NCBI GenBank assembly: GCA_949752745.1
Contig: OX457031.1
Location: 55,108,803-55,172,802, forward strand
Reading direction: 5' to 3'
Length of the DNA: 64,000 nucleotides
DNA from: Protula sp. h YS-2021
Lineage: Eukaryota; Annelida; Polychaeta; Sabellida; Serpulidae
Below, in pieces: positions 29,219 through 47,491 of the stretch (position 1 is its first letter; every line of letters begins with the position of its first letter). The translations under genes were made by a program, and so were the position numbers. The notes below the pieces were generated by a model, which saw nothing but the letters and a program-made list of their open reading frames with translations, ran no database searches and was not told the origin of the DNA.

Positions 29219-29224
29219 AAAACT
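29219..29224 (+). repeat. Left target-site duplication AAAACT
   Basis: Identical to 36810-36815. It directly abuts the AG start of the element. Confidence 0.88.
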
Positions 29225-29241
29225 AGTAGTGTGAAAACGGG

Positions 29242-29335
29242 GGTTCTAAAACAGGAAGTGACGTCATAGTGACGTCACATGGTGTTTTAGAACCCCCACG
29301 GGGGTTCTAAAACAGTGACGTCATAATGACGTCAC
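29242..29335 (+). promoter_or_regulatory. Terminal module A: palindrome between paired CRE sites
   Basis: GGGGGTTCTAAAACA, two TGACGTCA sites, then an inverted-plus-direct copy of the same GGGGGTTCTAAAAC (hairpin about 29284-29312), then two more TGACGTCA sites. TGACGTCA is the consensus bound by CREB/ATF bZIP proteins. Role in transcription, replication or packaging is inferred only from position at the element end. Confidence 0.65.
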
Positions 29336-29490
29336 TGTGGGGAAAACCCGATCGATAAATTTCAGAGTGCACTCGTACAGAGTGTGGGGGAAAACCCGAT
29401 CGATAAATTTTAGAGTGCACTCGTTCAGAGCGTGGGAACGATCAATAAATTTGAGAAGGAATGGGATTTTCAGCAGGATAAAAGTGTGGC

Positions 29491-29570
29491 TCCGAAAACA
29501 GGAAGTGACGTCATAATGACGTCACGAGGTGTTTTCGGAGCCCCATGGGGCTCCGAAAACAGTGACGTGA
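29491..29570 (+). promoter_or_regulatory. Terminal module B: variant palindrome between CRE sites
   Basis: Same plan as module A, but the flanking word is GGCTCCGAAAACA and the palindrome is built on GTTTTCGGAGCCCC. All copies of the word inside module B carry the same changes relative to module A. Confidence 0.62.
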
Positions 29571-29629
29571 TTGTTTTCGAATTCGCATGGGTATTTTGAA
29601 ACAGGTAATCGAAAGAGCGCGCGCCCGTT

Positions 29630-29850
29630 CACTGACGTCATGATGACGTCATCATGACGTTATAATGACGTCATCATGATGACGTTATAATGACGTCATC
29701 ATGGCGTTATAATGACGTCATCATCATGACGTTATAATGACGTCATAATGACGTCATCATGACGTTATAATGACGTCATCATCATGACGTTATAATGACG
29801 TCATCATGACGTTATCATGACGTTATCATGACGTCATCATGATGTTATGG
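29630..29850 (+). promoter_or_regulatory. CRE-type TGACGTCA array, left arm
   Basis: About ten TGACGTCA sites and several TGACGTTA variants repeat at ~20-25 bp intervals with ATCATGACGTTATAA spacers. Two further site pairs in each terminal module and one near 29908 give about 17 per arm. Such arrays act as enhancers when bound by CREB/ATF. Confidence 0.75.
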
Positions 29851-30016
29851 CATATTAAGACAGTTCTAAGCAGGATAACCCTAAGTCGCCTGTCAATCAT
29901 CATGACGTCATTAGTCACGTGACCTGTCAATCATCATTGGTCACATGACCTGTCAATCATGTGTGATGTGATTCCAACCGCATATGAGGAATATTTTCCT
30001 GCTGATTAACCTTCTG

Positions 30017-30101
30017 GCCTGAATGGCTCAGTTGGTAGAGCAGGGGACCCGTAAGCGGACCCATGATCTGAAGGTCGGTGGATCGAACCCGCCCTCGGGC
30101 A
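30017..30101 (+). tRNA. tRNA-like gene 1 (Met-CAT-like) with 12-base insertion, left arm
   Basis: Acceptor GCCTGAA pairs with CTCGGGC at six of seven positions. The D arm GCTCAGTTGGTAGAGC is canonical. The T arm GGTGG-ATCGAAC-CCGCC pairs fully with one G-T. The anticodon region has an imperfect 12-base tandem duplication (GGGGACCCGTAA then GCGGACCCATGA). Without the first copy, the arm folds with a CAT anticodon. Box A and box B are good, so Pol III transcription is plausible. Whether it yields a usable tRNA is doubtful. Confidence 0.6.
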
Positions 30102-30135
30102 TCACTTTCATATCATGGGTCCTCAATCTTAGAAG

Positions 30136-30247
30136 ACCCCCCCCCCCCCAGGATCAAGACATGACATGAATCGGACCCCCCCCCCAGGACCAAGACATGA
30201 CATGTATCGGACCCCCCCCCCCCGGACCAAGACATGGCATGTATCGG
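30136..30247 (+). repeat. Three ~40 bp C-run repeats after tRNA-like gene 1
   Basis: The unit GACCAAGACATGACATG with a run of C repeats three times. The mirror copies lie at 35782-35897 with longer runs. A 28 bp perfect palindrome centred on CATATAGCTATATG follows at 30248-30275. Confidence 0.8.
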
Positions 30248-30339
30248 ACATAGTCATATAGCTATATGACTATGTAATTGCTATGTGAACATAATTAGTT
30301 TCAAGTATGTATGTCATTATCAGATCGTTTAATAGTCAA

Positions 30340-30412
30340 GCCGCGATAGCTCACTTGGCAGAGCAAACGGCTAGCAACCTGAGAGTCCCGGGATCGATAC
30401 CACATCGGGGCA
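30340..30412 (+). tRNA. tRNA-like gene 2 (Ala-AGC-like), left arm
   Basis: 73 bases. Acceptor GCCGCGA/TCGGGGC pairs at six of seven positions. The D arm is canonical except for one base, and the anticodon loop is CTAGCAA. Box A (TAGCTCACTTGG) and box B (GGATCGATACC) match Pol III promoters, and a T-run follows at 30416. The anticodon and T stems pair poorly, so it may be a tRNA-derived Pol III transcript and not a working tRNA. Confidence 0.55.
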
Positions 30413-30482
30413 AACTTTTTTTTGGTTTTTTGTTCACTTTTATGACTCTGTGACATTATGTGACAACATGTGACTCTGTGAC

Positions 30483-30500
30483 ATTATGTGACTGTGACTG

Positions 30501-30530
<30 letters not shown>
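30483..30530 (+). repeat. Poly-T tract in arm
   Basis: A T-run of about 28 follows a short TGTGACTCTGTGACATTATG repeat. Mirror poly-A is at 35500-35524. Confidence 0.85.
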
Positions 30531-30534
<4 letters not shown>

Positions 30535-30644
30535 AATGGCTATATTTCTATGTCTATTTTCACTATTATTATGATAATATTTAATTAGTCATATTTCAAT
30601 GGTTCTAACCACACAGCATAGGAATAAGTACATGTGTACAGAGT

Positions 30645-30895
30645 GTGGGGAAACCGATCAATAAATTTTAGAGTGCACTCGTTCAGAGTGTGGAGGAAAC
30701 CGATCGATAAAATTTCAGAGTGCACTCGTTCAGACCGTGGGAACGATCGATAAATTGGAAAACATCAAAGGCCTAGACCGTGGGAACGATCGATAAATTT
30801 GAAAACATCAAAGGCCTAGACCGTGGGAACGATCAATAAATTTCAGAGTGCACTAATTCAGAGCGTGGGAACGATCAATAAATTTGAGAAGGAAT
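30645..30895 (+). repeat. GATCGATAAATTT / AGAGTGCACTCGTTCAGA repeats
   Basis: About six copies, and two to three more near the terminus at 29346-29455. The unit contains the ClaI-like GATCGAT and the palindrome AGTGCACT, and is often followed by GCGTGGGAACG. Mirror copies are at 35145-35390 and 36580-36690. Confidence 0.8.
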
Positions 30896-30984
30896 GGGAT
30901 TTTCCACAACTCTATGTTTTATGTTATAGTAGTTGGAAAATGACACTTCTAAAGCACATTTAACAAATGTAGGTTTTTATAACA

Positions 30985-31515
30985 TATAATATATAAAATA
31001 AGTTTGAACATTTTAGCATGCTACTTATTTGAATATTCTAAAGTCATAGTAGTGGAAAAATGATGGTTCTAGACCAACTTTAACAAATTTTGTTTTTTGA
31101 CAAAATATGATGTATAAAATAAGTTTGAACATTTTACCATGGTGTAGTAGGGTAAAAATTAGGGTTCTAGACCAACTTTAACAAATTTAGTTTTGAACAC
31201 CATATGATATATAAAATAAGTTTGAACATTTTAGCATGCTAGTTATTTGAATATTCTAAAGTCATAGTAGTGGAAAAATGGTGGTTCTAGACCAATTTTA
31301 ACAAATTTTGTTTTTTGACAAAATATGATGTATAAAATAAGTTTGAACATTTTACCATGGTGTAGTAGGGTAAAAATAAGGGTTCTAGACCAACTTGAAC
31401 AAATTTTTGTTTTTTTGACAACATATGATGTATAAAATAAGTTTGAACATTTTACCATGGTGTAGTAAGGTCAAAATCAGGGTTCTAGACCAACTTTAAC
31501 AAATTTAGTTTTTTA
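30985..31515 (+). repeat. ~110-125 bp tandem repeats in left arm
   Basis: About five units with GGTTCTAGACCAACTTTAAC, AAATAAGTTTGAACATTTTA and TAGTAGGGTAAAAAT. The mirror array lies at about 34510-35045. Non-coding. Confidence 0.85.
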
Positions 31516-31607
31516 CACGTTTCAGACGATTCTACCACTTGGTTGGTTGGTTGATTGTTGGAAAATGGGAAGTGAAAATGTGGATAGTTATGTAGGAAAA
31601 CTGCGCC

Positions 31608-31690
31608 CATTCAAAAGACGTGTTCGAATGGCAAGCCCATTTTAAAGACGTGTTCGAATGGCAAGCCCATTTTAAAGACGTGTTCGAATA
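31608..31690 (+). repeat. Subterminal ~30 bp repeat shared with the 37.7 kb element
   Basis: Three tandem copies of a unit with AAGACGTGTTCGAATGGCAA and GCCCATT. The same unit (AAAGATGTGTTCGAATG...AGCCC) occurs in both ends of the Polinton-like element (37799-37858 and 49171-49210). Confidence 0.78.
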
Positions 31691-31714
31691 ATTTTTGAAA
31701 GATATTACGTCGTG

Positions 31715-31865
31715 GTATTGTTCAACAAATTGTTCAACATGTTCAACACGTTCAACATGTTCAACATGTTCAACATGTTCAACAAGTTCAACATGTTCAA
31801 CATGTTCAACAAGTTGTTCAACATGTTCAACATGTTCAACAAGTTCAACATGTTCAACATGTTGT
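31715..31865 (+). repeat. GTTCAACAT 9 bp array, left arm
   Basis: About 16 units of the 9-mer (some GTTCAACAA or GTTCAACAC), ending just before the TATA box. The right arm holds about 25 units. Confidence 0.92.
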
Positions 31866-31873
31866 ATATAAAG
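31865..31873 (+). promoter_or_regulatory. TATA box for the zinc-finger gene
   Basis: TATATAAAG, 53 bases before the ATG at 31926. The mirror copy in the right arm reads TATATAGAG. Confidence 0.65.
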
Positions 31874-31925
31874 CTATGTTTAAAGACTTTCTCATCATTT
31901 GAATAGTGTAGGTTGAACCGAAAGG

Positions 31926-32657
31926 ATGTATACATGCAACATTTGTTCGAAATCTTACAATTGGCCGCAAAGTCTTAAAAGACACTTAAAGGTTGCTCAC
32001 GCTTCAGAAGTGGATGAAGAATCGGATATGGAAAACCCTGTAAAACTACCTTTCATGGAAACTTTAGATGAGTCTTCTATGGAAAGTCAAAGCGTCAACA
32101 TAGCTGAAAAGAATGCACATGCTTGTACAGAATGTGGTGCATTGTACAACAGCGAAGAAGCTTTGCTCAAACATATGGAGCAGTGTGGTGCGGATGCTGA
32201 TGACAGGAGTTCTGAAAGTGAGTCAGAAACAGACTCTGAAAGTGAGTCAGAAATAGACTCTGTTTGGCATGATATGGTTCAAGACGTCTACGATGACTAT
32301 GATAACATATTTCAAGAAAAGGTTTCAGAATATGAAGAACAAGGACTTGAAGATGCGCGTGAAATAGCAAGTTATGACCTTCGACCCATTTATAAGCATG
32401 GACTAAAACAACTGTTTATGAGACTGTTCAACTATACCCAGCGTCTACAACAAAGCAAACATTATCAAAAGATTTTAGAGGACTTTAATTACTTTGTTGA
32501 TGAAAAACATTATAAGTATTCAAAGGCATTAAAGGCGGCTATAAGGAAAAACAATGCATTCTTTGAAGAGCTACTAGATATGGAGGAGGAGGATGGTAGC
32601 AGTGACAACAAAAGTGGCATGGACAGTGAACAGAGTGAAACAGATGCAGAAAAATAG
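31926..32657 (+). CDS. C2H2 zinc-finger / acidic protein of the 29.2 kb element
   Basis: 243 residues, intact. A canonical C2H2 finger sits at residues 4-25 (C4, C7, H20, H25). A second, C2HC-like finger (CTECGALYNSEEALLKHMEQC) follows near residues 65-85. Then come a Ser/Glu/Asp repeat (SESESETDSESESEIDS), a helical, charged region with KHYQKILEDFNYFVDEKHYK, and an acidic tail. The first 16 codons belong to the left inverted repeat; the rest is unique. A TATA box lies upstream in the arm, and an AATAAA at 32679 follows the stop. The fold suggests a DNA-binding regulator; the function is not recognised. The helper-like element next door also has a small zinc-finger ORF (38906) at the equivalent place. 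Confidence 0.8.
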   Translation: MYTCNICSKSYNWPQSLKRHLKVAHASEVDEESDMENPVKLPFMETLDESSMESQSVNIAEKNAHACTECGALYNSEEALLKHMEQCGADADDRSSESESETDSESESEIDSVWHDMVQDVYDDYDNIFQEKVSEYEEQGLEDAREIASYDLRPIYKHGLKQLFMRLFNYTQRLQQSKHYQKILEDFNYFVDEKHYKYSKALKAAIRKNNAFFEELLDMEEEDGSSDNKSGMDSEQSETDAEK

Positions 32658-32678
32658 ACTTATTTGACTAAACTTTAT

Positions 32679-32684
32679 AATAAA
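32679..32684 (+). terminator. Polyadenylation signal of the zinc-finger gene
   Basis: AATAAA 22 bases after the stop codon. Another AATAAA lies at 32954. Confidence 0.55.
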
Positions 32685-32799
32685 GACTTTATAAATGTTG
32701 TAATATTTTATTAACTTAAGCGTTGTGTAATATATGTCTTGCTTTACAACATATAAAGTCGTAAGGTTCCTGACACGGTTTTAATTGACCCGTAAACCA

Positions 32800-32950
32800 T
32801 ATATCATATATTGGGTATTATAGTTAATTTTGTATTATTATGTATTATATTCAAGAATTGTATTATTATGTATTATATTCAAGTATTGTTTTATTATGTA
32901 TTATATCCAAGTATTGTTTTATAATGTATTATATCCAAGTATTATATGAG
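32800..32950 (+). repeat. ~27 bp AT-rich repeats between convergent genes
   Basis: ATTATGTATTATATTCAAGT-type units repeat about five times between the two 3' ends. Confidence 0.7.
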
Positions 32951-32983
32951 AAAAATAAAAAGTTGAAAAGCATCATATGTGTT

Positions 32984-32989
32984 TTTATT
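32984..32989 (-). terminator. Polyadenylation signal of the PC4-domain gene
   Basis: AATAAA on the minus strand about 320 bases beyond the stop codon at 33307. Confidence 0.4.
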
Positions 32990-33306
32990 GAACATTACAA
33001 ATATGTACAATTATGATAAAAACAAAACTATTTCAAATACATATTATGTTAATACATGTGCAGAAGAACTAAACTTAAAATTTTATAACAACTGACTTCA
33101 CATGAACATAGATAAAGTTAATTTCATAGTCTACATATGAAGACAATTTAATTTGAACTACATATCAAATGTACATGTCCATATGAGTCAAAGCTAAGGT
33201 CTTGTCAAGCTTCAAAACCGTCGGTCCAATCTTCTGCACTGTGATGAAATCACAGCATCCACTAAGCTCGTCATGCTGTTAAAACTGTATACAGTCATCT
33301 CGCTGT

Positions 33307-33849
33307 CTACTCAACCATCTTCTGACAGTCACTGCATTTATACAGATCCATTTTCTGGAGCATGAGATCCACTGACGTCATTTGCTTCTTCAACATGTGC
33401 CAGTCTTTCAATGACAACAAAATTCCCTTCTTGGTAGGATATAACCTCCCAGATGCATGATTCGTAATATATTTACGAATGTTAACCATCACTTTCTGTT
33501 GATAATTCACCAATTTAATATATGTTTCTCCATTAATGGGTATCATAACCGGTGAATCGTCTACACGCATCTTCTTCATAGTGGTATCAGCTTTACGCTC
33601 CGGTTCTCGCTTCACATTAGGCTCTGTCGTATTTTTTCGCATTTTACACGGCGGCGTCATAGCTGGTAACTCATCTCTTTTTATCTTTCTAAGATGTGGT
33701 CGCTTTTGACGCTGCTGACGTGACTTCGCCTTAGACTTTACAATGGGCATTGCCTTAGACTTTGCTGTAGGTATTGTCTCAGGCTTTGCTATAAAATTTT
33801 CTGCAGGCATTGCCATAGATGGTAGTTCACTCACTGCAGACATGTTCAC
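33307..33849 (-). CDS. PC4 (p15/Sub1) domain protein of the 29.2 kb element
   Basis: 180 residues, intact. The N-terminal half is basic and Lys/Arg/Pro-rich (AKSKAKSRQQRQKRPHLRKI). Residues about 108-165 match the PC4/Sub1 single-strand DNA-binding fold: YIKLVNYQQKVMVNIRKY, then PTKKGILLSLKDWHMLKKQ, which fit the conserved K-V-x-V-x-I-R-x-Y and K-K-G-I-x-L-x-x-x-x-W-x-x-L-K pattern. The C-terminus has a CSDC pair. PC4 proteins bind single-stranded and unwound DNA and act in transcription and replication. The gene starts 132 bases inside the right inverted repeat and reads towards the zinc-finger gene. A related protein is encoded at 42138-42506. Confidence 0.85.
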   Translation of the reverse strand: MNMSAVSELPSMAMPAENFIAKPETIPTAKSKAMPIVKSKAKSRQQRQKRPHLRKIKRDELPAMTPPCKMRKNTTEPNVKREPERKADTTMKKMRVDDSPVMIPINGETYIKLVNYQQKVMVNIRKYITNHASGRLYPTKKGILLSLKDWHMLKKQMTSVDLMLQKMDLYKCSDCQKMVE

Positions 33850-33896
33850 TCTTCAGTATCTTGATACAGAATGTGCGTTATGTCTGAGGGTAGGTA

Positions 33897-33905
33897 CCTT
33901 TTATG
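33897..33905 (-). promoter_or_regulatory. TATA-like box for the PC4-domain gene
   Basis: CATAAAAGG, 48 bases upstream of the ATG, in unique sequence just inside the right arm. Confidence 0.5.
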
Positions 33906-33969
33906 CTCTATAGGGAGCTGCCACACTCGAGGTTGGACACACTATGTCCTAAAATGTTTAGAAATAATT

Positions 33970-34029
33970 TTACCATATGCGACTTTGCAGCCAATTGTAA
34001 GATTTCGAACAAATGTTGCATGTATACAT
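33970..34029 (-). pseudogene. Truncated start of the zinc-finger ORF in the right arm
   Basis: The right inverted repeat contains the same ATG and the first 16 codons as the zinc-finger gene (one amino acid differs, P to L). The frame then enters unique DNA and stops after 19 codons. It includes both Cys of the finger but no His, so it cannot bind zinc as a C2H2 finger. It could act as a short upstream ORF on transcripts of the PC4-domain gene. Confidence 0.75.
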
Positions 34030-34084
34030 TCTTTCGGTTCAGCCTACACTATTCAAATGATGAGAAAGTCTTTAAACATAGCTC

Positions 34085-34318
34085 TATATACAACTTGTTG
34101 AACAACATGTTGAACAACAACATGTTGAACATGTTGAACAACTTGTTGAACATGTTGAACAAGTTGAACATGTTGAACTTGTTGAACTTGTTGAACATGT
34201 TGAACATGTTGAACAACTTGTTGAACATGTTGAACATGTTGAACTTGTTGAACATGTTGAACATGTTGAACATGTTGAACGTGTTGAACATGTTGAACAA
34301 TTTGTTGAACAATACCAC
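34085..34318 (-). repeat. GTTCAACAT 9 bp array, right arm (expanded)
   Basis: Mirror of 31715-31865 but about 80 bp longer. Open frames across it (Leu/Asn or Phe/Asn repeats) are artefacts. Confidence 0.92.
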
Positions 34319-35612
34319 GACGTAATATCTTTCAAAAATTATTCGAACACGTCTTTAAAATGGGCTTGCCATTCGAACACGTCTTTAAAATGGGCTTGCC
34401 ATTCGAACACGTCTTTTGAATGGGCGCAGTTTTCCTACATAACTATCCACATTTTCACTTCCCATTTTCCAACAATCAACCAACCAACCAAGTGGTAGAA
34501 TCGTCTGAAACGTGTAAAAAACTAAATTTGTTAAAGTTGGTCTAGAACCCTGATTTTGACCTTACTACACCATGGTAAAATGTTCAAACTTATTTTATAC
34601 ATCATATGTTGTCAAAAAAACAAAAATTTGTTCAAGTTGGTCTAGAACCCTTATTTTTACCCTACTACACCATGGTAAAATGTTCAAACTTATTTTATAC
34701 ATCATATTTTGTCAAAAAACAAAATTTGTTAAAATTGGTCTAGAACCACCATTTTTCCACTACTATGACTTTAGAATATTCAAATAACTAGCATGCTAAA
34801 ATGTTCAAACTTATTTTATATATCATATGGTGTTCAAAACTAAATTTGTTAAAGTTGGTCTAGAACCCTAATTTTTACCCTACTACACCATGGTAAAATG
34901 TTCAAACTTATTTTATACATCATATTTTGTCAAAAAACAAAATTTGTTAAAGTTGGTCTAGAACCATCATTTTTCCACTACTATGACTTTAGAATATTCA
35001 AATAAGTAGCATGCTAAAATGTTCAAACTTATTTTATATATTATATGTTATAAAAACCTACATTTGTTAAATGTGCTTTAGAAGTGTCATTTTCCAACTA
35101 CTATAACATAAAACATAGAGTTGTGGAAAATCCCATTCCTTCTCAAATTTATTGATCGTTCCCACGCTCTGAATTAGTGCACTCTGAAATTTATTGATCG
35201 TTCCCACGGTCTAGGCCTTTGATGTTTTCAAATTTATCGATCGTTCCCACGGTCTAGGCCTTTGATGTTTTCAAATTTATCGATCGTTCCCACGGTCTGA
35301 ACGAGTGCACTCTGAAATTTTATCGATCGGTTTCCTCCACACTCTGAACGAGTGCACTCTAAAATTTATTGATCGGTTTCCCCACACTCTGTACACATGT
35401 ACTTATTCCTATGCTGTGTGGTTAGAACCATTGAAATATGACTAATTAAATATTATCATAATAATAGTGAAAATAGACATAGAAATATAGCCATTATGTT
35501 AAAAAAAAAAAAAAAAAAAAAAAACAGTCACAGTCACATAATGTCACAGAGTCACATGTTGTCACATAATGTCACAGAGTCATAAAAGTGAACAAAAAAC
35601 CAAAAAAAAGTT

Positions 35613-35685
35613 TGCCCCGATGTGGTATCGATCCCGGGACTCTCAGGTTGCTAGCCGTTTGCTCTACCAAGTGAGCTATCGCGGC
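35613..35685 (-). tRNA. tRNA-like gene 2, right-arm copy
   Basis: Copy of 30340-30412 with one difference in the D loop (GGTAGAGC instead of GGCAGAGC), which restores the usual D-arm sequence. Confidence 0.55.
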
Positions 35686-35932
35686 TTGACTATTAAACGA
35701 TCTGATAATGACATACATACTTGAAACTAATTATGTTCACATAGCAATTACATAGTCATATAGCTATATGACTATGTCCGATACATGCCATGTCTTGGTC
35801 CGGGGGGGGGGGTCCGATACATGTCATGTCTTGGTCCTGGGGGGGGGGGGGGGGGGTCCGATTCATGTCATGTCTTGATCCTGGGGGGGGGGGGGGGTCT
35901 TCTAAGATTGAGGACCCATGATATGAAAGTGA

Positions 35933-36017
35933 TGCCCGAGGGCGGGTTCGATCCACCGACCTTCAGATCATGGGTCCGCTTACGGGTCCCCTGCTCTACC
36001 AACTGAGCCATTCAGGC
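35933..36017 (-). tRNA. tRNA-like gene 1, right-arm copy
   Basis: Inverted-repeat copy of 30017-30101 with the same 12-base duplication. Confidence 0.6.
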
Positions 36018-36189
36018 CAGAAGGTTAATCAGCAGGAAAATATTCCTCATATGCGGTTGGAATCACATCACACATGATTGACAGGTCATGTGACCAATGA
36101 TGATTGACAGGTCACGTGACTAATGACGTCATGATGATTGACAGGCGACTTAGGGTTATCCTGCTTAGAACTGTCTTAATATGCCATAA

Positions 36190-36405
36190 CATCATGATAA
36201 CGTCATGATAACGTCATGATAACGTCATGATGACGTCATTATAACGTCATGATGATGACGTCATTATAACGTCATGATGACGTCATTATGACGTCATTAT
36301 AACGTCATGATGATGACGTCATTATAACGCCATGATGACGTCATTATAACGTCATCATGATGACGTCATTATAACGTCATGATGACGTCATCATGACGTC
36401 ATTGA
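36190..36405 (-). promoter_or_regulatory. CRE-type TGACGTCA array, right arm
   Basis: Mirror copy of 29630-29850 in the right inverted repeat. Confidence 0.75.
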
Positions 36406-36809
36406 ACGGGCGCGCGCTCTTTCGATTACCTGTTTCAAAATACCCATGCGAATTCGAAAACAATCACGTCACTGTTTTCGGAGCCCCATGGGGCTCCGAA
36501 AACACCTCGTGACGTCATTATGACGTCACTTCCTGTTTTCGGAGCCACACTTTTATCCTGCTGAAAATCCCATTCCTTCTCAAATTTATTGATCGTTCCC
36601 ACGCTCTGAACGAGTGCACTCTAAAATTTATCGATCGGGTTTTCCCCCACACTCTGTACGAGTGCACTCTGAAATTTATCGATCGGGTTTTCCCCACAGT
36701 GACGTCATTATGACGTCACTGTTTTAGAACCCCCGTGGGGGTTCTAAAACACCATGTGACGTCACTATGACGTCACTTCCTGTTTTAGAACCCCCGTTTT
36801 CACACTACT

Positions 36810-36815
36810 AAAACT
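36810..36815 (+). repeat. Right target-site duplication AAAACT
   Basis: Identical to 29219-29224. It directly abuts the terminal CT. Confidence 0.88.
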
Positions 36816-37707: not shown

Positions 37708-37842
37708 AGTCTTCTACCACAAGATTCTACCACAGAATTCTACCACAGCCCCCCCCCCCCCCCCCCCCGGCATCGAGCTCTCAGCGAAGTTGAGCGAGCC
37801 ATTCAAAGATATGTTCGAATGACAAGCCCATTCAAAGATGTG
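37708..37842 (+). repeat. Left terminal inverted repeat of the Polinton-like element
   Basis: AGTCTTCTACCACA, GATTCTACCACAG, a C-run, GAGCTCTCAGCGAAGTTGAG and the ATGTTCGAATGACAAGCCCA repeat, matching 49171-49288 inverted. Confidence 0.8.
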
Positions 37843-38111
37843 TTCGAATGGTCAGCCCTTTCAAACACGTGAATAGCCCATACATTTTATTCACACACAC
37901 ATACAAACACTCAAACAGTCATACATAGTAACATTAGCTTATTTTGGAGCAAAAGGAGCCCTTAGAAGGACTTTAATTTTAGTTTTGGATGAACTGTTAC
38001 TAAAAACACCCAAAAAGCTTGTTCTCTTCTATCCAATCTTCTTTTGCATCCACCGCCATTTCAATGTTAAAAATATCAGCCTTAGATCTGCACCATTCTC
38101 GTCTGGCCATT

Positions 38112-38143
38112 CCAAGACACATTGCAAAAACAATGTGTCTTGG
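38112..38143. other. Perfect hairpin, 13 bp stem
   Basis: CCAAGACACATTG, six-base loop CAAAAA, CAATGTGTCTTGG, in the left subterminal region. Confidence 0.85.
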
Positions 38144-38324
38144 ACACCAACCAATGCAAATATATGGTACAGACCTACTCTATCCAAGCGGTAAGGCATG
38201 ACCGATGCTTCGTTTTCTTTTTTCCCTGCGAATGAGTGTCAGGAGCTCTAATCTGAGCTGTTTATATATGCGCGACCTGAATTCTAGATCAATCGATCAA
38301 AGACTCACAGCGTGGGAAAAAATA

Positions 38325-38450
38325 CAAACCATTTGAGAAGGAATTACATTTCCCACGCCGATTACCGACATTTCCCACGCCAAGTACCGAAACATCAGAG
38401 CCAGAGAAATCAACATACTTCTCATTAGCAGCAACAACAAACGTGATGGT
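38325..38450 (+). pseudogene. Deleted second copy of a PolB segment in the left subterminal region
   Basis: ACCATTTGAGAAGGAATTAC, CATTTCCCACGCCGATTACC and AGAAATCAACATACTTCTCA parallel the PolB region at 39672-39870 (AGCCATTTGAGAAGGAATTA ... GGGAAATCAACTTACTTCTG) with about 70 bases missing. A captured gene fragment. Confidence 0.6.
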
Positions 38451-38559
38451 ATGTGGCCAACAAATTATAGCAAAATTAAGTTTTGGAAAACATATTAAAT
38501 CTTGGCATATACATATTACGTGATTGTATGTGAGACCCCCCCCCCCCCCCCCCACAGTG

Positions 38560-38795
38560 GAAACTTTTGTGATTTTTGTATATTTATCCGTTTCAGACGA
38601 TTCTTAACATTTTTTTAGCTTTTTTACCCCCCCCCCCCCGTGGGAAAATTTTGTGATTTTTGCATATTTATCTGTTTCAGATGATTCTGAACATTTTTGG
38701 TTTTTTACCTCTCCCCCGTGGGAAAATTTTGTGATTTTTGCATATTTATCTGTTTCAGACGATTCTGACCATTTTTGGTTTTTTTACCCCCTTTT
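38560..38795 (+). repeat. Tandem ~85 bp repeats with TTTCAGACGATTCT
   Basis: Three units with TGTGATTTTTGCATATTTAT, CTGTTTCAGACGATTCTGA and ACATTTTTGGTTTTTT and a C-run. An inverted counterpart is at 47985-48070. The TTTCAGACGATTCT core also occurs in both arms of the 29.2 kb element (31518-31535 and its mirror). Confidence 0.75.
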
Positions 38796-38844
38796 CTATT
38801 TTTAGACATCTCCCTACGAAATTGGGAACTTGTCAACATGGGTG

Positions 38845-38853
38845 TATAAAAGG
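38845..38853 (+). promoter_or_regulatory. TATA box, left gene block
   Basis: TATAAAAGG 53 bases before the ATG at 38906, the same spacing as in the 29.2 kb element. Confidence 0.55.
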
Positions 38854-38905
38854 ACGTCTGAGAACACATTTCAGCATATCAGTTCCAGCAATTGATGCGG
38901 CAACA

Positions 38906-39193
38906 ATGGCAGCCAATTCGGACACACCAGTCCTCTGCCTTGAATGCAAAGAGGAATTTGCTTCTATGGAATTGTTTGATACACATACATGCACACAAGC
39001 TGAGATGAAAACTGCAGTGAAACAAGCTCGTGACGAGTTCGCTAGCGCAGGTACGGGAGCGGAACTTATATCTGCATTGAAAGGTGCTCATGAAGAGCTT
39101 GATGAGGAGACACCTGCAAAGAGACAAAGATGGGGCAAGTGGGGAGAGGCAGAAGGCTTAGTCTTGGCAAAATCGGGCAGGCAAAACGGGTAG
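38906..39193 (+). CDS. Small zinc-finger-like ORF of the Polinton-like element
   Basis: 95 residues from the TATA-proximal ATG. A C2HC-like finger (CLECKEEFASMELFDTHTC) is at residues about 11-29. Then a charged helical part with ALKGAHEELDEETPAKRQR. It ends at a stop before the recognisable PolB region. It may be the N-terminus of a larger decayed gene or the counterpart of the zinc-finger gene at 31926. Confidence 0.5.
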   Translation: MAANSDTPVLCLECKEEFASMELFDTHTCTQAEMKTAVKQARDEFASAGTGAELISALKGAHEELDEETPAKRQRWGKWGEAEGLVLAKSGRQNG

Positions 39194-39389
39194 AGTCCAA
39201 AAATGGAATTGCTGCATGAAATGCGACAGCAACAGAACCGCATAAAGAAACATTTGCTGGAGACCTTAGACCGTGGAATGAAATGATGGTGTATGCACGT
39301 TTCAAGAAAATGATGACGAATGCACAGGGTGTCATGACAAAACAAGTGGACAATACCTATACAAACAGCGTACAATCAGGCGTATATTG

Positions 39390-42110
39390 AAAAGAACTTG
39401 CCGGAAGCCTCTAAAGAATTGCTTACCAAGTTTGATCAACATGAACGACAAGGCTCTGGCTGGGTGCTAGACGAAATACTGTACATTGAATTGCATACAG
39501 CTATGTTTGCGCCTCTGGAAGCAAGCAGTTTTATCCCGCTGCCGACGAAAGTGGAGAATGCGAAGGGTGTGTTAAACATTCAGAATAAAGACAACAAGTG
39601 TTTCTTATGGTCAGTATTGGCCCACCTTCATCCTTTAACAAACAACAACACACAGCGTGTAAATCAATAGAAGCCATTTGAGAAGGAATTAAAGGTAGAG
39701 GGTATGACATTTCCCGCGGTGATTATTGACATTCCGAAGTTTGAAAAGGAAAATGATGTGTCCATCAACGTGTTTGGATATGAACAAAATATGCTTGTTC
39801 CGATACAACTCAACCGAAACGTCAGTGCGAGGGAAATCAACTTACTTCTGATTAGCAGTGACAACAAAAGGCATTGCTGCTTGATCCAGAATTTCAGCTG
39901 ACCTATGCCTTATCTATCAAAGCATAAGGGTACAACTTTTTATTGTTTCAAATGTCTTCACGGGTTTATATAAGATCTTTTAGATAAGCATCGTCAAGTG
40001 TACGGAAAACATGGAGCGCAACGTTTATCATTCCCCAAAGAACCTATCATCAAGTTCAATAATGTAGACAAACAACAGTAAGCACCTTTTGTGATTTATA
40101 CCGACTTTGAATGTTTCACGCAAAAGCATGAAGGGGAGAGGTATCAGCATCATCGTCCAAACAGCTTTGTCTATGTGGTTGTCAGCCAGTGCGACAAAAG
40201 TTCGCCAGTTGTGTATCGAGGAGACAATGCTGTGAAGGTCTTTTTAGACCATATGGTGAATGAACGTATTGTGCATTGTTTAGAGCAGCCAAAGGACATG
40301 GTGATGACCCGTGAGGACCGAGAGAATTTCAAGAACGCTACATTTTCCATGAGCCTCTATTAGCGGATCGTGTGAGAGATCATGACCACACAAATAGCAA
40401 ATGAATGCAACTTGCAATTTCGACTTAGAAAGGATCGAAAGGTTGATAAAGATTCTTTTATCATTCCTGTGTTTTTCCACAATTTGCGAGGCTATGACAG
40501 TCATCTGATCATGGCGAAAATTGGGAAATTCAAAAATGAAACACTTGCAGTCATTCCCAACACCATTGAAAAATATATTGCTGTATTGCAGACAGCTTTC
40601 AGTTTATGAGTACCTCTCTACAGAAGTTGGTATCCAACCTCGCGGCTGAAGGGAAAGATAACTTCTACAACATGACTTCTCACATCCACGATAGCGACCA
40701 ACAAGATTTGCTGCTGGGAAACTGAGTGTACCCCTATGATTACATGGACGAACAATCCAAGTTTGCTGAAAAGCAGCTACCGTCAATGGACAACTTTTAC
40801 AATCAGCTCAGCGAAGAGGACATTTGCGATGAGGATTATGCTCACGCGCAGAAAGTGTGGGATACATTCAACTGTACCACATTCGTTAAATACTACATGG
40901 CTGTGCATGTCGCAAAGGATGCCACGAAGTGGATTTATGTGGGTGAGTGAGTCAAAATCCCATAGATGTGGCTGAAGGTGACGACATTGGATATATTTTG
41001 GAAGTGGATTTAGAATACCCACAGTAAATCCATGATCGTCATAATCACTATCCAGTGGCTTCAGACTGGAAATGTGTCAAAGTTGGAGAGTACAGTCAGA
41101 AGCTGCGGAAAGATCTGAACATGAAAGGCAAACCTAGTGAAATACTCATTCCTAACCTATGCAACAAGAAGAAATATGTGCTTAATTACAGGAATTTATA
41201 GCAGTATAGTCTCACTGGGGCTGAAAGTCAACAAAGTGCACCGTGAAATCATGCTTGAATAGAGTAAATGGTTGGCAAAATACATTACCTTGAGCACGGA
41301 ACAGAGAAAATTGGCCAAGAACTCGTTTGAGAAAGACTTCTTCAAACTGATGAATAACTGTGTTTGGCATAACCATGGAAAATGTGAGAAAGCGAATCAA
41401 TGTTGAACTTGTTCACAAGGAAAAGCGGTTCAAGAAAGTCGTGGCCAAGCCTTCTGCCTACAAATTCAGTATTTTCAACGACGATTAACCACCGCACGTT
41501 TTCGCAAAGTGGATTTGCTTCTGAATAAACCCATTCAAGTCTTCTTCCCCATTCTCGACCTCAGCAAAGTGCTTATGTTTGATGTTCATTACAATTACAT
41601 CATGGCCAAGTATCCCAATGCCAAGTTGTTGTTCAGCGACACCAACAGTCTATGTTATGACATAGAAACGGAAGATATCTACAAGACATGCAGCAACATA
41701 CTGAGTTGTACGACACAAGTGACTATCCTTCAGATCATTTCCTGCATTCCAACGCAAACAAAAAAGTGCTTGGGAAAATGAAGGATGAGATGGCAGGCAT
41801 CCCCTGTGAAGAGTTTGTTGAACTCAGACCGAAAACGTATAGTTTAATGTATGATGGGAAAAAAACATACGGATAAACGCATCACTCGAGCTTGTCAAAG
41901 ACCCATTAAATATGTGCAGTATAGAGACAGTTTGTTCAACCAAACTCAAACGATGGCTACAGCACATATTATTCGAAGTCATGACCACTAGCTTTTCTCG
42001 GAGAAATTGAGGAAAGTAGTCCTCTCCCCATATGACGACAAGTGGCACGTATTGAATGATGGCTATTCCAACTTGCGTATGGACATTACAAGACGACACC
42101 ATAAAGTTAT
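39390..42110 (+). pseudogene. Protein-primed-type DNA polymerase B, broken
   Basis: Family B polymerase of Polintons/adintoviruses, recognised from motifs spread over several frames. An N-terminal GSGWVLDEIL...PLEASSFIPLP segment is followed by KDNKCFLWSV. Exonuclease motif I is YTDFECF near 40099, and exonuclease motif II is FFHNLRGYDSHL near 40475. YPYDYMDEQSKF is near 40735, motif A-like DLSKVLMFDVHYNYI near 41560, and motif C FSDTNSLCYD near 41635. In motif C the second catalytic Asp reads Asn. There are in-frame stops (for example TAG at 39668) and several frame changes, so no polymerase can be made. The family replicates element DNA from a terminal protein primer. Confidence 0.82.
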
Positions 42111-42137
42111 TTGATGTGTGAATACTGAAGAGTTAAC

Positions 42138-42506
42138 ATGGAAGTGAAATCAAGCCGTAAGAGATCTGCAACTTATATGGACACTCTTGCTGATACAATA
42201 AAGGACTTAAAAGTCAGAAATCCCACCATCACCACCATCAAGAAATTGAAAGTGGAGACGCAACCAGCACCACCACCACAGTTGTGGGAGGGATTGCTTT
42301 CTCTGGGAAATGGAAAGTACATTAAAATTATGAAGCAAAGCAATGAAGCAGTGGTAAACATTCGCATGTGCCTCAGAGATGAGGGGTCTGGAAGAAACAG
42401 TCCTACGAAAAAAGTATTTCGCTTGACACTGTCTGAATGGAAAATGCTGAAGAAGCACCCGAAAGAAGTGAATAAAAGGCTTCGCAGACAAGGAGAGAGC
42501 TCATAG
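42138..42506 (+). CDS. PC4 (p15/Sub1) domain protein of the Polinton-like element
   Basis: 122 residues, intact although its neighbours are broken. The N-terminus is basic (EVKSSRKRSATYMD). Residues about 50-118 are PC4-like: LGNGKYIKIMKQSNEAVVNI, then SPTKKVFRLTLSEWKMLKKH, with the conserved K-K, L-x-x-x-x-W-x-x-L-K pattern. The usual GI after KK is VF. It is the clearest protein link to the 29.2 kb element (33307-33849), whose PC4 protein has a longer basic N-terminus and an extra CxxC tail. It lies 28 bases after the PolB remnant. Confidence 0.78.
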   Translation: MEVKSSRKRSATYMDTLADTIKDLKVRNPTITTIKKLKVETQPAPPPQLWEGLLSLGNGKYIKIMKQSNEAVVNIRMCLRDEGSGRNSPTKKVFRLTLSEWKMLKKHPKEVNKRLRRQGESS

Positions 42507-42716
42507 TTGAAGCGACTGTTGAACGAGATGAAAGACTTTTTATCGGATTATGAACTCATTACAGATCACTTCTCATATCTAAGAAACGCATATGATGACA
42601 TTGTACTGAGACATTTTGGAACGTATATCATACTATCGCCTGAAGCGCAGTCTTTGTTGAAGGACAATCTACGGGAGTTGAGGATATCATGGCTTTCTCC
42701 TTATACTCTCAGATGA
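42507..42716 (+). CDS. Unidentified 69-residue ORF after PC4
   Basis: Helical, Leu-rich sequence (FSYLRNAYDDIVLRHFGTYI). It starts directly after the PC4 stop codon in a different reading context. It may be a remnant of a larger gene; no family recognised. Confidence 0.35.
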   Translation: MKRLLNEMKDFLSDYELITDHFSYLRNAYDDIVLRHFGTYIILSPEAQSLLKDNLRELRISWLSPYTLR

Positions 42717-42772
42717 TTTAGAAGTGCGTGTGACTGCAAACTGCCTAGACGTGTTTGTACGATTCCGACAGT

Positions 42773-43000
42773 ATGGCGAGCTTACAGACTACTACGACTA
42801 CATCACCCTCAACACAGTGGATGGTGATGGACAATATCTTACACATGAATGAACATGGATATGAACTGAAACTGTCTGAACATGATAATGCTAAAATAAT
42901 AAAGTTTGGTAATGGACAGTGTTATGTGAGTTTTCATAGTATTTACAAACGTGGGTATAATGTCTATGACACATACATTAATTTAGATTGTAATGAATGA
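42773..43000 (+). CDS. Unidentified ~75-residue ORF
   Basis: Starting at an internal Met, the protein has a Thr/Ser-rich N-terminus then HGYELKLSEHDNAKIIKFGN and FHSIYKRGYNVYDTYINLD. The second half could be a small beta fold, loosely PC4-like in spacing, but I do not recognise it. AATAAA signals follow at about 43092 and 43146. Confidence 0.4.
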   Translation: MASLQTTTTTSPSTQWMVMDNILHMNEHGYELKLSEHDNAKIIKFGNGQCYVSFHSIYKRGYNVYDTYINLDCNE

Positions 43001-43257
43001 CATTCGTTTATCAATGCATTGAATGTTATTTGCTTGTAAAAAATATGTGTAGAAAAAAGTTTAATGTAAATAATTGTTTTTTTTTGTAACACAATAAAAA
43101 GAAAGATTTTTTGTTAAAATGTAAATAATTGTTTTTTCTAACAAAATAAAAAAGAAAGTTGTATAAAACTGTCTTGTTTTATTTCTGATATTTATAATAA
43201 ATGACATTGACAATTACCCAATCAGCTTAACTAATAAAACTCTATATACTAACAACA

Positions 43258-43708
43258 TCAATAAAATAATGGTTTATAATGTCTACATACAAATTCCTTT
43301 ACCACAAAATCACCATCAATTCTTCTCAATACATCAATGATTTCATTGATGTATTGAGAAGAATTGATGGTGATTTTCTCTTTGAATAATATATTACACA
43401 CAATAAAATCCACATGTAGATGAAATCGGTGCTTGTAATGTAACTGAATTATAAATGAAATGAAAATTTAAAAACTTATTCAAACGACTATCTATAGGTA
43501 AAAGTCCATAAGAGTCAAAATATTCTCCTGGGTCTTTGTCAAAACACACTTCCACCCAGTGCTCTCCTGGTTCATCATGGCCGTCTGTATTGATGAAATA
43601 GGCACCACGTTGTAAAGATGGTAACTGGTCCATGGAAAACACACCTGGAAACAAGTCTTTTGTCATTCTATCATTGGATAGTATGGCATCTATATGTTTC
43701 GTATTCAT
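43258..43708 (-). pseudogene. Adenain-like cysteine protease, disrupted by an inverted duplication
   Basis: Polinton/adenovirus-type protease (Ulp1-like fold) that matures capsid proteins. The visible frame (43394-43708) has the catalytic His in GEHWVEVCFD, an acidic residue in EYFDSYG, and Cys in STCGFYCV. It stops right after the Cys motif. The expected C-terminal part lies beyond a 35 bp inverted duplication: frame 43258-43342 encodes DVLRRIDGDFVVKEF and ends with TGA at 43258. The gene is therefore broken by the hairpin insertion and a stop. Confidence 0.8.
43306..43377. repeat. Perfect 35 bp inverted repeat with 2-base loop
   Basis: Arms 43306-43340 and 43343-43377 are exact complements (AAAATCACCATCAATTCTTC ... 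GAAGAATTGATGGTGATTTT). The lower-coordinate arm, read on the minus strand, continues the protease gene. The other arm is an inverted extra copy of it. Confidence 0.93.
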
Positions 43709-43744
43709 GACTGGTAGTCGAATTGAATACTGCGATTTGCACTT

Positions 43745-44640
43745 ATTTAAATGATGTTGTTAAATTCAGCATAGACATGACATTGACTGTATTTTGCAAG
43801 GCACGGGCAAAATTCATTTCTAGCCGCAAATTCCCATGTTTAATGAGTGGATAGTGGTCATCACCACTATAATCAGGTGTTAAGTCAAATGCGAATGAAT
43901 AACCTCTAGGTCAATCTTCCCGTTTTATGATGGAACTTTTCTCACCATTCAATCTATCAAAACATTTGTAAAGAGTTTCAAAAGCGTCAAGACATTTCCC
44001 CTCATTAATTATGAGCTTGTGAGGTTTGGATAGGATTGGTTTGCCATCAGCGTAAAGTTGCTGTTAGAAATGTTAGAAATTGTATGTATTTCTCAATTTG
44101 TTCCAGCAAAGGATTCATTACGAACCATTCCAATGGCAATACGTTTTGGTAATTGACCCAAAAAGATGTTATCTTTCACAAAATATTGAAATCCAATGTG
44201 AATAGCTAAAATTTTACACTCTTTTCTGGTAATAGGAAACTTGGCAGGAGTTTTCATCATTGCATCTGTATATCCTAAGTGAATACCTAGACTAGCCCTC
44301 ACTTATGGAATGGTTGAAAACGCATCTCTCACTTCTTCCTTAAAAGTATTAGTTACAGCTATTAATACATATTCATCTTTTCGTCTATGTAAACGCGATT
44401 TCACACTGGCCATTGGGAAGATAACGATCCTGCTCAAACAAATCTACTCTTAAGGCACCTGTTAGTATAAACTAAGGCTTAGACGCGTATACAAATAACG
44501 ATTATGTAAATCATTATTTCCTGCTTCACCTATTTCACCACTTTCATTATTTACATGAAAACCTGTTATATACTTTTCTTGATTGGGTCTTTTCACCTCA
44601 TGAGTATTCATTGATTCCACCATAGGTTCCCTTGTTTTCT
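43745..44640 (-). pseudogene. Capsid-protein-like remnant (Polinton F54H12.2-like family)
   Basis: Broken frames. At 44093-44302 there is FPITRKECKILAIHIG and NIFLGQLPKRIAIGMV, and at about 43780-43905 YSFAFDLTPDYSGDD and HYPLIKHGNLRLEMNFA. From memory of the family these are conserved in the putative major capsid protein of Polintons, where they belong to a double jelly-roll protein. Stops and frameshifts occur near 43912 and 44060. Assignment to the major capsid protein is by family resemblance only. Confidence 0.62.
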
Positions 44641-44692
44641 AACAACATTTTATATTCGTATTCAAGAATGAGGACCATTTTCAAAGCATGTT

Positions 44693-44838
44693 TCATTTTA
44701 ACTGAGCTAACAAGGGTAGTGCAAATTTAGCAATGGCTCCAATGAATCGTCCTTTCTGATTGACCAACTTCTTTTTTCTTCGAAGTGATATCTCCCTATG
44801 TGTCAGTGTGCGTAGGGAACGACGCTCACGCTTGAATT
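44693..44838 (-). pseudogene. Small basic/hydrophobic virion-peptide-like remnant
   Basis: A ~48-codon frame without a start: KRERRSLRTLTHREISLRRK then NQKGRFIGAIAKFALPLLA. A basic segment followed by a short hydrophobic tail is typical of small core or membrane-lytic peptides encoded next to the capsid gene in Polintons. Weak support. Confidence 0.35.
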
Positions 44839-44901
44839 CCTAAAACCTTTTTGAGGATAAATGTCCTCGCAATATATTCAAACAAATTTCAAACAAGCTA
44901 G

Positions 44902-45444
44902 TTAATTCCCCCTTAGTAGCTTGCTGTAGCAAGGATTTACGTCGTTTAGGCCCACTGCGTGCAAGCATGTGAAAAAAGGCTGGTTAGCTCGAATACGTTT
45001 AGACATCTTGGCTGCGTATGGTTCGTGGTCTTTTTTTCGACTTGTTTCATAAAATATCTTCTGGAAGGCTTGTATGACGCTGGTATGTGATTTATTAGGG
45101 ATTGGCTGCACCCACAAATATTTGGAAAACACATCAATGACAACCAATAAGAAGCGGGTATCATCATTATAGGAGGCTATGTATCCCATGTCAGCCAAAT
45201 CAATATCCCACATATCATCAATACCACGTGTAATGACACGTTGCCTTTTAAACCTCTGTTTTCAGGTTGTAATAAACTGAATGCATCTTGATCCTGCAAT
45301 CATTTCTTCACTTTGGAATGAGTAATTGGTTGATTATGTTTTTAATATGTGATGAAGTTTGTAAGGACCAGCGAATGCTCCAGGTTGGTCAGGTTTAAAG
45401 TAAATATTGATTAAGTAGTCTTTCCAGGTCGATATGTTAACACT
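44902..45444 (-). pseudogene. RVE-type integrase, truncated and broken
   Basis: Polinton integrase (retroviral-integrase fold). The best frame (44902-45213) has MWDIDLADMG with the first catalytic Asp, then VVIDVFSKYLWVQPIPNKS and VIQAFQKIFYE. Upstream remnants in other frames include FKPDQPGAFAGPYKL near 45380-45420. The part with the second catalytic Asp and Glu is missing. The protein would insert element DNA and make a 6 bp target duplication. Confidence 0.8.
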
Positions 45445-45486
45445 AAATGAAAACCACTTGTTAACATATCTTACAGTTTATTCTTT

Positions 45487-45783
45487 TTACAAATCAAGTC
45501 TAGACACAAAGGTGTGAATAATTGGAGTCCATTGATCTTCAATGTACACTAACCAACTACTTAAAACATCAAATGTTACAGCATTTAAACTACATTTCTC
45601 ACAACGTTTATTTGCATTGTCCAAAACATTATCTGAATGAATATAATATTTAACTTCATTCCAATATGTATAGACACATGTGAAATGACGAGGGTGCAAT
45701 TTTTTACAGCTAATAACATTGCTTTGCAATATGCTTTTTGCACAATATATTGTCTCAATGTAATGTCTGCCATTATACTGCAA
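45487..45783 (-). CDS. Unidentified 98-residue ORF of the small-gene cluster
   Basis: Intact frame with paired cysteines (ANKRCEKCSLNA) and YCAKSILQSNVISCKKLHPR, possibly zinc-binding. Its ATG overlaps the 3' end of the next upstream ORF by 11 bases, the compact packing expected of virus-like elements. No family recognised. Confidence 0.5.
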   Translation of the reverse strand: MQYNGRHYIETIYCAKSILQSNVISCKKLHPRHFTCVYTYWNEVKYYIHSDNVLDNANKRCEKCSLNAVTFDVLSSWLVYIEDQWTPIIHTFVSRLDL

Positions 45784-46060
45784 TATACATTAACCACTGT
45801 CTCACTTCATCAAACAGTCTTGGATCAAACCGAGCAAAGTGAGATGCTGCTTCCACATCAAACTCCTCATCTCGGTCAATGTTTGAAAGTGCACACACAC
45901 ACACACACTCCTCACGTAAGTTTGGCAAGTTCAGCGTTGAATGAGCAAGTTCCCAATAGATATTAAAGTGTTGCAGCTGTTCTTCAATAGAACCAAACCG
46001 CACCAGTTCACTTATCATGTAGTCCACGTACTTCTCCTTGAAACACGTTTCTGCATCCAT
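45773..46060 (-). CDS. Unidentified 95-residue ORF of the small-gene cluster
   Basis: Intact. Acidic and helical, with DYMISELVRFGSIEEQLQHF and RLFDEVRQWLMY. A GT microsatellite inside codes CVCVCA. It is separated from the upstream ORF by nine bases. No family recognised. Confidence 0.5.
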   Translation of the reverse strand: MDAETCFKEKYVDYMISELVRFGSIEEQLQHFNIYWELAHSTLNLPNLREECVCVCALSNIDRDEEFDVEAASHFARFDPRLFDEVRQWLMYIAV

Positions 46061-46069
46061 CCTGCTTCA

Positions 46070-46450
46070 CTACGACGGCTGATGAGCAAATGGTTTTTCA
46101 AAAGGTCTGAGGTGACTCTCCAGATACTTTAGCGAGCCACACTTGCTGCAGAAGTTGTCTGGTTTACTCATCTTGAAATTGTATTTGTGATAGTGACAAT
46201 CATAATCACTGGCATATTCGTAAGCATCACAATATTCACAGGTAAGTCCAAGCTGATTTTGCACGTTCATATTCTCCAATTGAACGTCAGCCAGTCTTTT
46301 CTTAGATAGTTTTGACAGCTTCATCCGATTATCCTTTTGCAGTTTGATGACAGTTTTCACACCATGACATTCCGTACATGGTTCAGGTTTGGCGAATAAT
46401 ACTGAGTTATCCATCTCCTGAAGCATTGTCTCCCATTCACCGTCATTCAT
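46070..46450 (-). CDS. Unidentified 126-residue Cys-rich ORF
   Basis: Intact. Three CxxC units (CTECHG, CEYCDAYEYA, CSKCGSL) and a DCHYHKY segment suggest a zinc-ribbon protein with two metal sites. A TATA-like TATTTAAAG lies about 26 bases upstream of the ATG. It heads the three-gene run 46450 to 45487. Function unknown. Confidence 0.55.
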   Translation of the reverse strand: MNDGEWETMLQEMDNSVLFAKPEPCTECHGVKTVIKLQKDNRMKLSKLSKKRLADVQLENMNVQNQLGLTCEYCDAYEYASDYDCHYHKYNFKMSKPDNFCSKCGSLKYLESHLRPFEKPFAHQPS

Positions 46451-46475
46451 GTTGATTTAATACTTGTATACTGTC

Positions 46476-47456: not shown

Positions 47457-47491
<35 letters not shown>

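Follow-up and report, generated by a model that had tools for sequence, protein, structure and literature searches.

The 64,000-nucleotide stretch of contig OX457031.1 of Protula sp. h YS-2021 analysed here, referred to as the window, contains an element of 7,585 bp at positions 29225-36809. With a probability of roughly 0.7, this element is a short, coding, non-autonomous Polinton/Maverick that was inserted recently and mobilised in trans by a full-length relative. It combines the ends of a Polinton and a 6-bp target site duplication with the lack of any recognisable enzyme gene, the features by which a non-autonomous Polinton is recognised. Two intact convergent genes are present, one for a zinc-finger protein on the forward strand and one for a PC4-domain protein on the reverse strand. 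The main parts of the element are the following:

29219-29224, no strand: left copy of the target site duplication AAAACT, read from the sequence
29225-36809, no strand: whole element, AGTAGT...ACTACT, with the end motif that is printed for vertebrate Mavericks
29225-31974, forward strand: left inverted arm, 2,750 bp
31926-32657, forward strand: zinc-finger protein of 243 amino acids with two C2H2-type fingers, an acidic linker and a helical C-terminal domain (Pfam, alignment and model)
33307-33843, reverse strand: PC4-domain protein of 178 amino acids, domain at residues 106-153 (Pfam PF02229, E-value 3.7e-10)
33841-33856, reverse strand: start context of the PC4 gene, CTGAAGAGTNAACATG, common to the neighbouring Polinton (42125-42140)
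33970-34029, reverse strand: truncated start of the zinc-finger gene (16 codons, one changed residue, then divergence to a stop), an upstream open reading frame before PC4
33981-36809, reverse strand: right inverted arm, 2,829 bp, its extra length mainly from additional 9-mer units
36810-36815, no strand: right copy of the target site duplication AAAACT, read from the sequence

The element begins with AGTAGTGTGAAA at the left and finishes with TTTCACACTACT at the right, and AAAACT stands immediately beyond each terminus. An earlier note on this DNA had described AG...CT ends and a perfect AAAACT duplication, and both are borne out at the two borders. The probability of chance agreement of six given flanking bases is 1/4,096. 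An ungapped extension carried the outer arms 12 bases further per side (to 29213 and 36821), where 7 of the 12 positions pair, and this was taken as chance pairing. Comparing the element by blastn with the other 56 kb of the window (E-value threshold of 0.01, low complexity masked) revealed no further copy of it. The sole matches were its 30-bp repeats, which sit at both ends of the neighbouring Polinton.

The arms account for 73.6 % of the 7,585 bp, in agreement with the previous estimate that three quarters of the element is inverted repeat. An alignment of the two over 2,744 positions shows 9 substitutions, four of them within the outer 2.6 kb and five within the innermost 115 bp; the remaining differences are indels, located in the 9-mer array and in runs of poly-C and poly-T. 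Together with the intact genes, the near identity of the arms points to a recent insertion. The right arm repeats the left promoter and the beginning of the zinc-finger gene up to codon 16, start codon included and with one residue changed, and then diverges (31974/33981); its border does not coincide with the border of the gene. Since the complete zinc-finger gene is found on the left only and the right arm has just its start, the right arm is, by its gene content, a copy of the left end placed onto the right end. Such a copy from left to right would be the pattern of a linear genome in which one end replaces the other during replication. As a separate observation, five of the nine arm differences cluster innermost (31860-31966), a distribution that would fit a more recent homogenisation of the outer 2.6 kb.

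The coding content was assessed on nine open reading frames with an ATG start and at least 60 amino acids, eight of which were scanned against Pfam, while the ninth has a translation identical to one of those scanned. Only the zinc-finger and PC4 genes had matches at an E-value of at most 0.01, and with their intact reading frames the two-gene content reported earlier was confirmed. The reported absence of integrase, polymerase, ATPase, protease and capsid genes was examined by the same scan and by a comparison with the neighbouring Polinton, and none of these genes was recognised. A protein-primed DNA polymerase B was not found in the element with Pfam, and the open reading frames of the neighbour match it on PC4 only. 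Neither a retroviral-type integrase nor ATPase, protease or capsid genes were found by these two approaches; ATPase and capsid genes could likewise not be identified in the neighbour itself. A helicase had no Pfam match among the open reading frames of the element. Because no enzyme gene was recognised, the element is not considered an autonomous Polinton. For the comparison, stop-to-stop open reading frames of at least 60 amino acids from the neighbour were used, of which 3 of 65 match the element, all on the PC4 gene and in different frames, and 0 of 65 match the zinc-finger gene. As a control, 64 of the 65 recover the neighbour itself.

The second finger of the zinc-finger protein terminates in Cys and is C2HC-like. 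Among 5.8 billion proteins, one relative was found at an E-value of at most 0.01 (34 % identity over 99 %), and a profile of the two proteins retrieved 24 protein clusters with 204 member sequences, including P0001. At least 88 % of the window protein is covered by 18 of the 24 clusters, and 52-63 % by the other 6. The positions kept in at least 90 % of the aligned rows include C67, C70, H83 and C87 of the second finger, and part of the C-terminal region is likewise kept in at least 90 % of rows, with the consensus IKKSEHYKKLMEDI. On this sequence evidence, the protein belongs to a family without a name. Its AlphaFold model consists of fingers plus helices (predicted local distance difference test, pLDDT, 71; predicted template modelling score, pTM, 0.41), and in a fold search 0 of the 119 listed matches in BFVD, which holds viral models, and 0 of the 85 listed PDB matches reached an E-value of at most 0.001. 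No nuclease or polymerase family was matched by Pfam in the zinc-finger protein or in its 24 relatives.

PC4 binds single-stranded DNA and is a transcription coactivator. The PC4-domain protein of the element matches three PDB PC4 sequences with E-values of 3.3e-6 to 5.9e-6. A protein search with it gave no match at an E-value of at most 0.01 among 28 candidates. A structure model of this protein alone was poor (pLDDT 57.7) and was not used.

At a distance of 0.9 kb from the element, a further region reads as a decayed Polinton:

37708-49288, no strand: decayed Polinton outside the element, 11,581 bp, AG...CT, with inverted ends and pieces of integrase, adenain-like protease and PC4

Its inverted ends are 81 % identical over 135 columns, and its 6-bp flanks differ (GAAACG vs GTTCTA), the duplication not being intact. 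Pieces of a polymerase were recognised by eye, without a Pfam match, and the PC4 piece sits just after the region read as polymerase. It was also observed that the left subterminal region of this Polinton contains a divergent copy, with deletions, of part of its own polymerase region (38303-38441 vs 39648-39868), with pieces that are 86 % and 84 % identical (E-values 1e-14 and 3e-9).

The PC4 proteins of the element and of the neighbour are homologous (34 % over 86 amino acids, E-value 9e-14). For the comparison of their DNA, scores were set against 300 dinucleotide shuffles per stretch. The clearest common sequence is the 30-bp repeat with 84 % identity over 76 bp (E-value 8e-15; 73 bits vs a shuffle maximum of 29, 0/300), followed by a 61-bp region at the start of PC4 (31 bits vs 28, 0/300). 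Two stretches of the repeat termed module B exceeded their shuffle maxima by a narrow margin (33.7 vs 32.8 and 30.1 vs 29.2, 0/300 each), and module B is probably common to both. The score of the stretch with TTTCAGACGATTCT, which holds the motif TTTCAGAYGATTCT, was reached by 1 of 300 shuffles and that of the zinc-finger gene DNA by 2 of 300; no clear excess was seen for the PC4 gene at the DNA level (43/300). By these comparisons, the element and the neighbour are kin with common internal control DNA. Module B matches the subterminal region of the neighbour with E-values of 6e-5 and 7e-6 and the polymerase gene itself with 0.02 and 0.05; a derivation of module B from the polymerase gene may be regarded as a lead only.

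Most of the element consists of the putative control DNA of its arms. Read inwards, each arm starts with a terminal module of about 100 bp; after it come module B repeats, another copy of the terminal module, a TGACGTCA array and two tRNA-like units, followed by more module B, 100/118-bp repeats, three 30-bp repeats, a AACATGTTC array and a TATA box. TGACGTCA is taken here to be a CRE-type palindrome. The positions of these features are:

29225-29324, forward strand: terminal module in which paired TGACGTCA sites are flanked by a palindromic stem of 15 bp (29239-29253/29283-29297); mirror at 36710-36809
29349-29469, with further units at 30655-30906, forward strand: module B repeats (CGATCRATAAATTT / GCGTGGGAACGATCAATAAATTTGAGAAGGAAT), with mirror copies in the right arm and a match to the subterminal region of the neighbouring Polinton
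29472-29571, forward strand: second terminal module, 79 % identical to the first and 247 bp further in (folding z-score -6.97); mirror at 36463-36562
29633-29910, forward strand: TGACGTCA array (CRE-type palindrome); mirror at 36124-36401
30017-30101, forward strand: tRNA-like unit 1, a possible RNA polymerase III (Pol III) promoter with A box and B box (Rfam RF00005, 31.8 bits vs a cut-off of 29)
30340-30415, forward strand: tRNA-like unit 2 from a motif scan, with A box at 30347 and B box at 30391, then T8; right-arm copy at about 35610-35685, reverse strand
30921-31518, forward strand: 100/118-bp repeats with GGTTCTAGACCAA; mirror at 34512-35109
31605-31694, forward strand: three 30-bp repeats common to the terminal regions of the neighbouring Polinton; mirror at 34341-34430
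31736-31855, forward strand: array of the 9-mer AACATGTTC, upstream of the TATA box; mirror at 34127-34294
31865-31872, forward strand: TATATAAA box of the zinc-finger gene; right-arm counterpart at 34083-34090 (TATATAGA)
35933-36017, reverse strand: right-arm copy of tRNA-like unit 1 (Rfam; A and B box)

In the terminal module, a third copy of the stem strand follows at 29300, and the folding z-score over 29225-29345 is -9.35. Of the 15 stem positions, 4 differ between the two terminal modules; three of these differences are paired changes that preserve the base pair and the fourth breaks it. Since three of the four differences are compensated, the dyad itself seems to be kept, and it may act as a hairpin in the DNA or as a site for a protein. 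For each of the two palindromes (29239-29297 and 29488-29542), the module contains one more copy of the respective stem variant, at 29300 for the first and at 29549 for the second.

The CRE arrays that the earlier note had placed in the arms are well supported, as TGACGTCA occurs 37 times in the window vs 0.72 expected, a count that 0 of 100 shuffles reach, and 34 of the 37 copies are within the element. AACATGTTC occurs 21 times in the window vs 1.21 expected. Matches to microRNA families in the CRE and 9-mer arrays were rejected; they are below their own cut-offs and reflect simple repeats. The claim of tRNA-like genes in the arms could be upheld in part. Unit 1 passes the Rfam cut-off, and within the 64 kb the combined A-box and B-box motifs, as scanned, were found at the two units of each arm only. 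Unit 2 is below the Rfam gathering score and has the A-box and B-box motifs as its support, which leaves one passing unit per arm, and ARAGORN calls neither, with no tRNA in the window and none in the arms at the normal threshold with introns allowed. The many doubtful tRNAs listed by loosened ARAGORN runs were disregarded. The label of a tRNA-like Pol III promoter is a fair and possible, though unproven, description.

These observations can be combined into a mechanism in which a full-length relative would supply a protein-primed polymerase and an integrase. Linear DNA with matching ends would be copied by strand displacement, a mode of replication that would also maintain the identity of the arms, and the copied element would then be inserted by the integrase of the relative. 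The right arm would have arisen through copying of the left end onto the right end. Each arm may act as a regulatory block with terminal palindromes, CRE-type arrays, possible Pol III units and an inward-firing TATA promoter. The PC4 protein could serve as a single-strand DNA-binding and transcription factor during copying, and the single-strand binding of PC4 would suit copying by strand displacement. The zinc-finger protein could be a regulator that binds the arms. The non-autonomous element proposed by the earlier note is supported in part, by the ends, the target site duplication, the lack of recognisable replication, integration or virion genes and the kinship with the neighbour observed here; the helper on which it would depend, further copies and the status of a satellite are putative.

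Several results weigh against this explanation. Neither a further copy nor an empty site nor a helper could be observed in the window data. All Pfam-matched pieces of the neighbour are under the curated cut-offs (rve integrase E-value 4.6e-4, adenain-like protease 0.0069, PC4 0.0032). The terminal 121 bp of the element are not common to the neighbour, as 260 of 300 shuffles score as high, and for this reason the neighbour was dropped as a candidate for the direct helper. The 100/118-bp repeats are not common to both either (51/300 shuffles), and the tRNA-like units fold no better than shuffles (z-scores 0.09 and -1.24). The listed contigs of the zinc-finger relatives have at most 3,022 bases. 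Scans of IMG/VR with the proteins of the element, its DNA patterns and the proteins of the neighbour gave no relative, with the limitation that records close to the genome of the window may be excluded, and neither did a scan of prokaryote genomes. The lack of matches in IMG/VR probably says little, as this database is likely poor in animal Polintons.

A narrower form of the same explanation is that the element is a one-off deletion product, i.e. a full-length Polinton of the same family that lost its middle in replication or after insertion and left a dead-end copy with two leftover genes. A sizeable minority share of the probability of the explanation falls to this form. A right arm copied from the left end is expected of an event that generates a defective genome, non-autonomous Polintons are already known by name, and both genes could be ordinary Polinton genes, given the Ziftr zinc-finger class reported in one adomavirus and in some of the adintoviruses (PMC11071296) and the position of the neighbour's PC4 just after the region read as its polymerase. 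However, both genes are intact and converge symmetrically from the arm promoters, the zinc-finger family is conserved nearly full-length in 18 of 24 clusters (52-63 % in the other 6), and the arms are longer than the 46-1,447 bp printed for vertebrate Mavericks (PMC8097293).

Explanations that depart further from a mobilised Polinton fit the data less well. It is improbable that the element is a small virus or linear plasmid in its own right, which would borrow the integrase alone and replicate by means of an unrecognised replication protein, with the zinc-finger protein as the candidate. The zinc-finger model indeed has no close match among the listed BFVD and PDB hits, but neither the protein nor its 24 relatives contain a nuclease or polymerase family of Pfam, and a model of fingers and helices, with an acidic linker, looks regulatory, although the pTM of 0.41 limits the comparison of folds. 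It is very improbable that host or Polinton DNA was duplicated locally in inverted orientation without any transposition, or that the structure is an artefact of assembly. In favour of this, a single copy is known and long inverted repeats are easily misassembled. AAAACT on one side only would speak for such a local duplication, but the exact 6-bp copy is present directly beyond both arm ends, which also have the Maverick end motif. Moreover, two different genes lie between the arms, and 9 substitutions with several indels would be unexpected for a folded duplicate of one read.

Compared with known systems, the non-autonomous Polinton proposed here is close to the autonomous Mavericks of vertebrates, for which (AGT)2//(ACT)2 is among the printed end motifs and perfect 6-bp duplications are given (PMC8097293). 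The element has the same (AGT)2//(ACT)2 ends, inverted terminal repeats and a perfect 6-bp duplication. In contrast to the intact Mavericks printed there, with lengths of 12,723-24,620 bp and terminal repeats of 46-1,447 bp (PMC8097293), it has 7.6 kb, arms of 2.75-2.83 kb and no recognised core gene. Its AG...CT ends, its PC4 gene together with the start context of that gene, the 30-bp terminal repeat and the TTTCAGAYGATTCT motif recur in the neighbouring Polinton, which differs in having pieces read as polymerase, integrase and protease, a different terminal sequence, no zinc-finger match and no intact target site duplication. A miniature inverted-repeat transposable element is short and non-coding, unlike this element of 7.6 kb with two intact genes.

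The N in the name Polinton-1N1_DR presumably stands for non-autonomous, so that the non-autonomous kind of Polinton seems to have been given a name already. Polinton-1N1_DR is a named element of zebrafish (PMC9341505). The likeness to it is one of name. Therefore, the statement of the earlier note that no described element with this layout is known needs to be narrowed: the name of a non-autonomous Polinton exists, and in searches of an open-licence library no paper was recognisable as describing a coding non-autonomous Polinton with long arms.

The transpovirons of mimiviruses are linear DNAs of about 7 kb with terminal inverted repeats, a core zinc-finger protein and a suggested dependence on another virus (PMC8877843). 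The element is similar in its size class of about 7 kb, its terminal inverted repeats and its zinc-finger protein. One described transpoviron has six open reading frames, including a helicase, and terminal repeats of 77 nt, with more than 300 nt in others (PMC8877843). The element differs in that it has no helicase in Pfam; the host of a transpoviron is a giant virus, and Polinton ends are unmentioned in the available part of PMC8877843. Besides the absent helicase, the presence of a WW-domain exon in the same window was weighed against membership in the transpovirons. For one adomavirus and part of the adintoviruses, zinc-finger genes named Ziftr have been reported (PMC11071296), and the element resembles these animal viruses of the Polinton side in having a gene for a putative zinc-finger regulator, likened by description and not by sequence. 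Adintovirus and adomavirus genomes differ from it in their virion genes.

Elsewhere in the window, a reverse transcriptase remnant was observed at 58039-58515 (RVT_1, E-value 3.4e-6, just under the Pfam cut-off). The WW-domain exon is located at 15877-16215 on the minus strand (E-value 7.6e-9). It resembles what we take to be an animal RhoGAP gene.

One capsid survey put aside Polinton-like elements of less than 10 kb as incomplete (PMC4028283), and such a filter would have missed an element of 7.6 kb. Whether the element stands for more than a single mobilised copy is a wider question. It is possible, though rather doubtful, that it represents a lasting satellite lineage of animal Polintons with PC4 and its own zinc-finger regulator, in which three quarters of the length would be duplicated control DNA and which would compete with the helper for polymerase, integrase and perhaps capsids. 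Such competition can be likened to that of transpovirons and virophages with giant viruses, and, although Polintons are regarded as virus-transposons, no paper in searches of an open-licence library was recognisable as describing satellites that live off animal Polintons. A recent, intact, coding Polinton without enzymes would allow a direct test of mobilisation in trans, and of whether Polintons naturally copy and pack foreign DNA.

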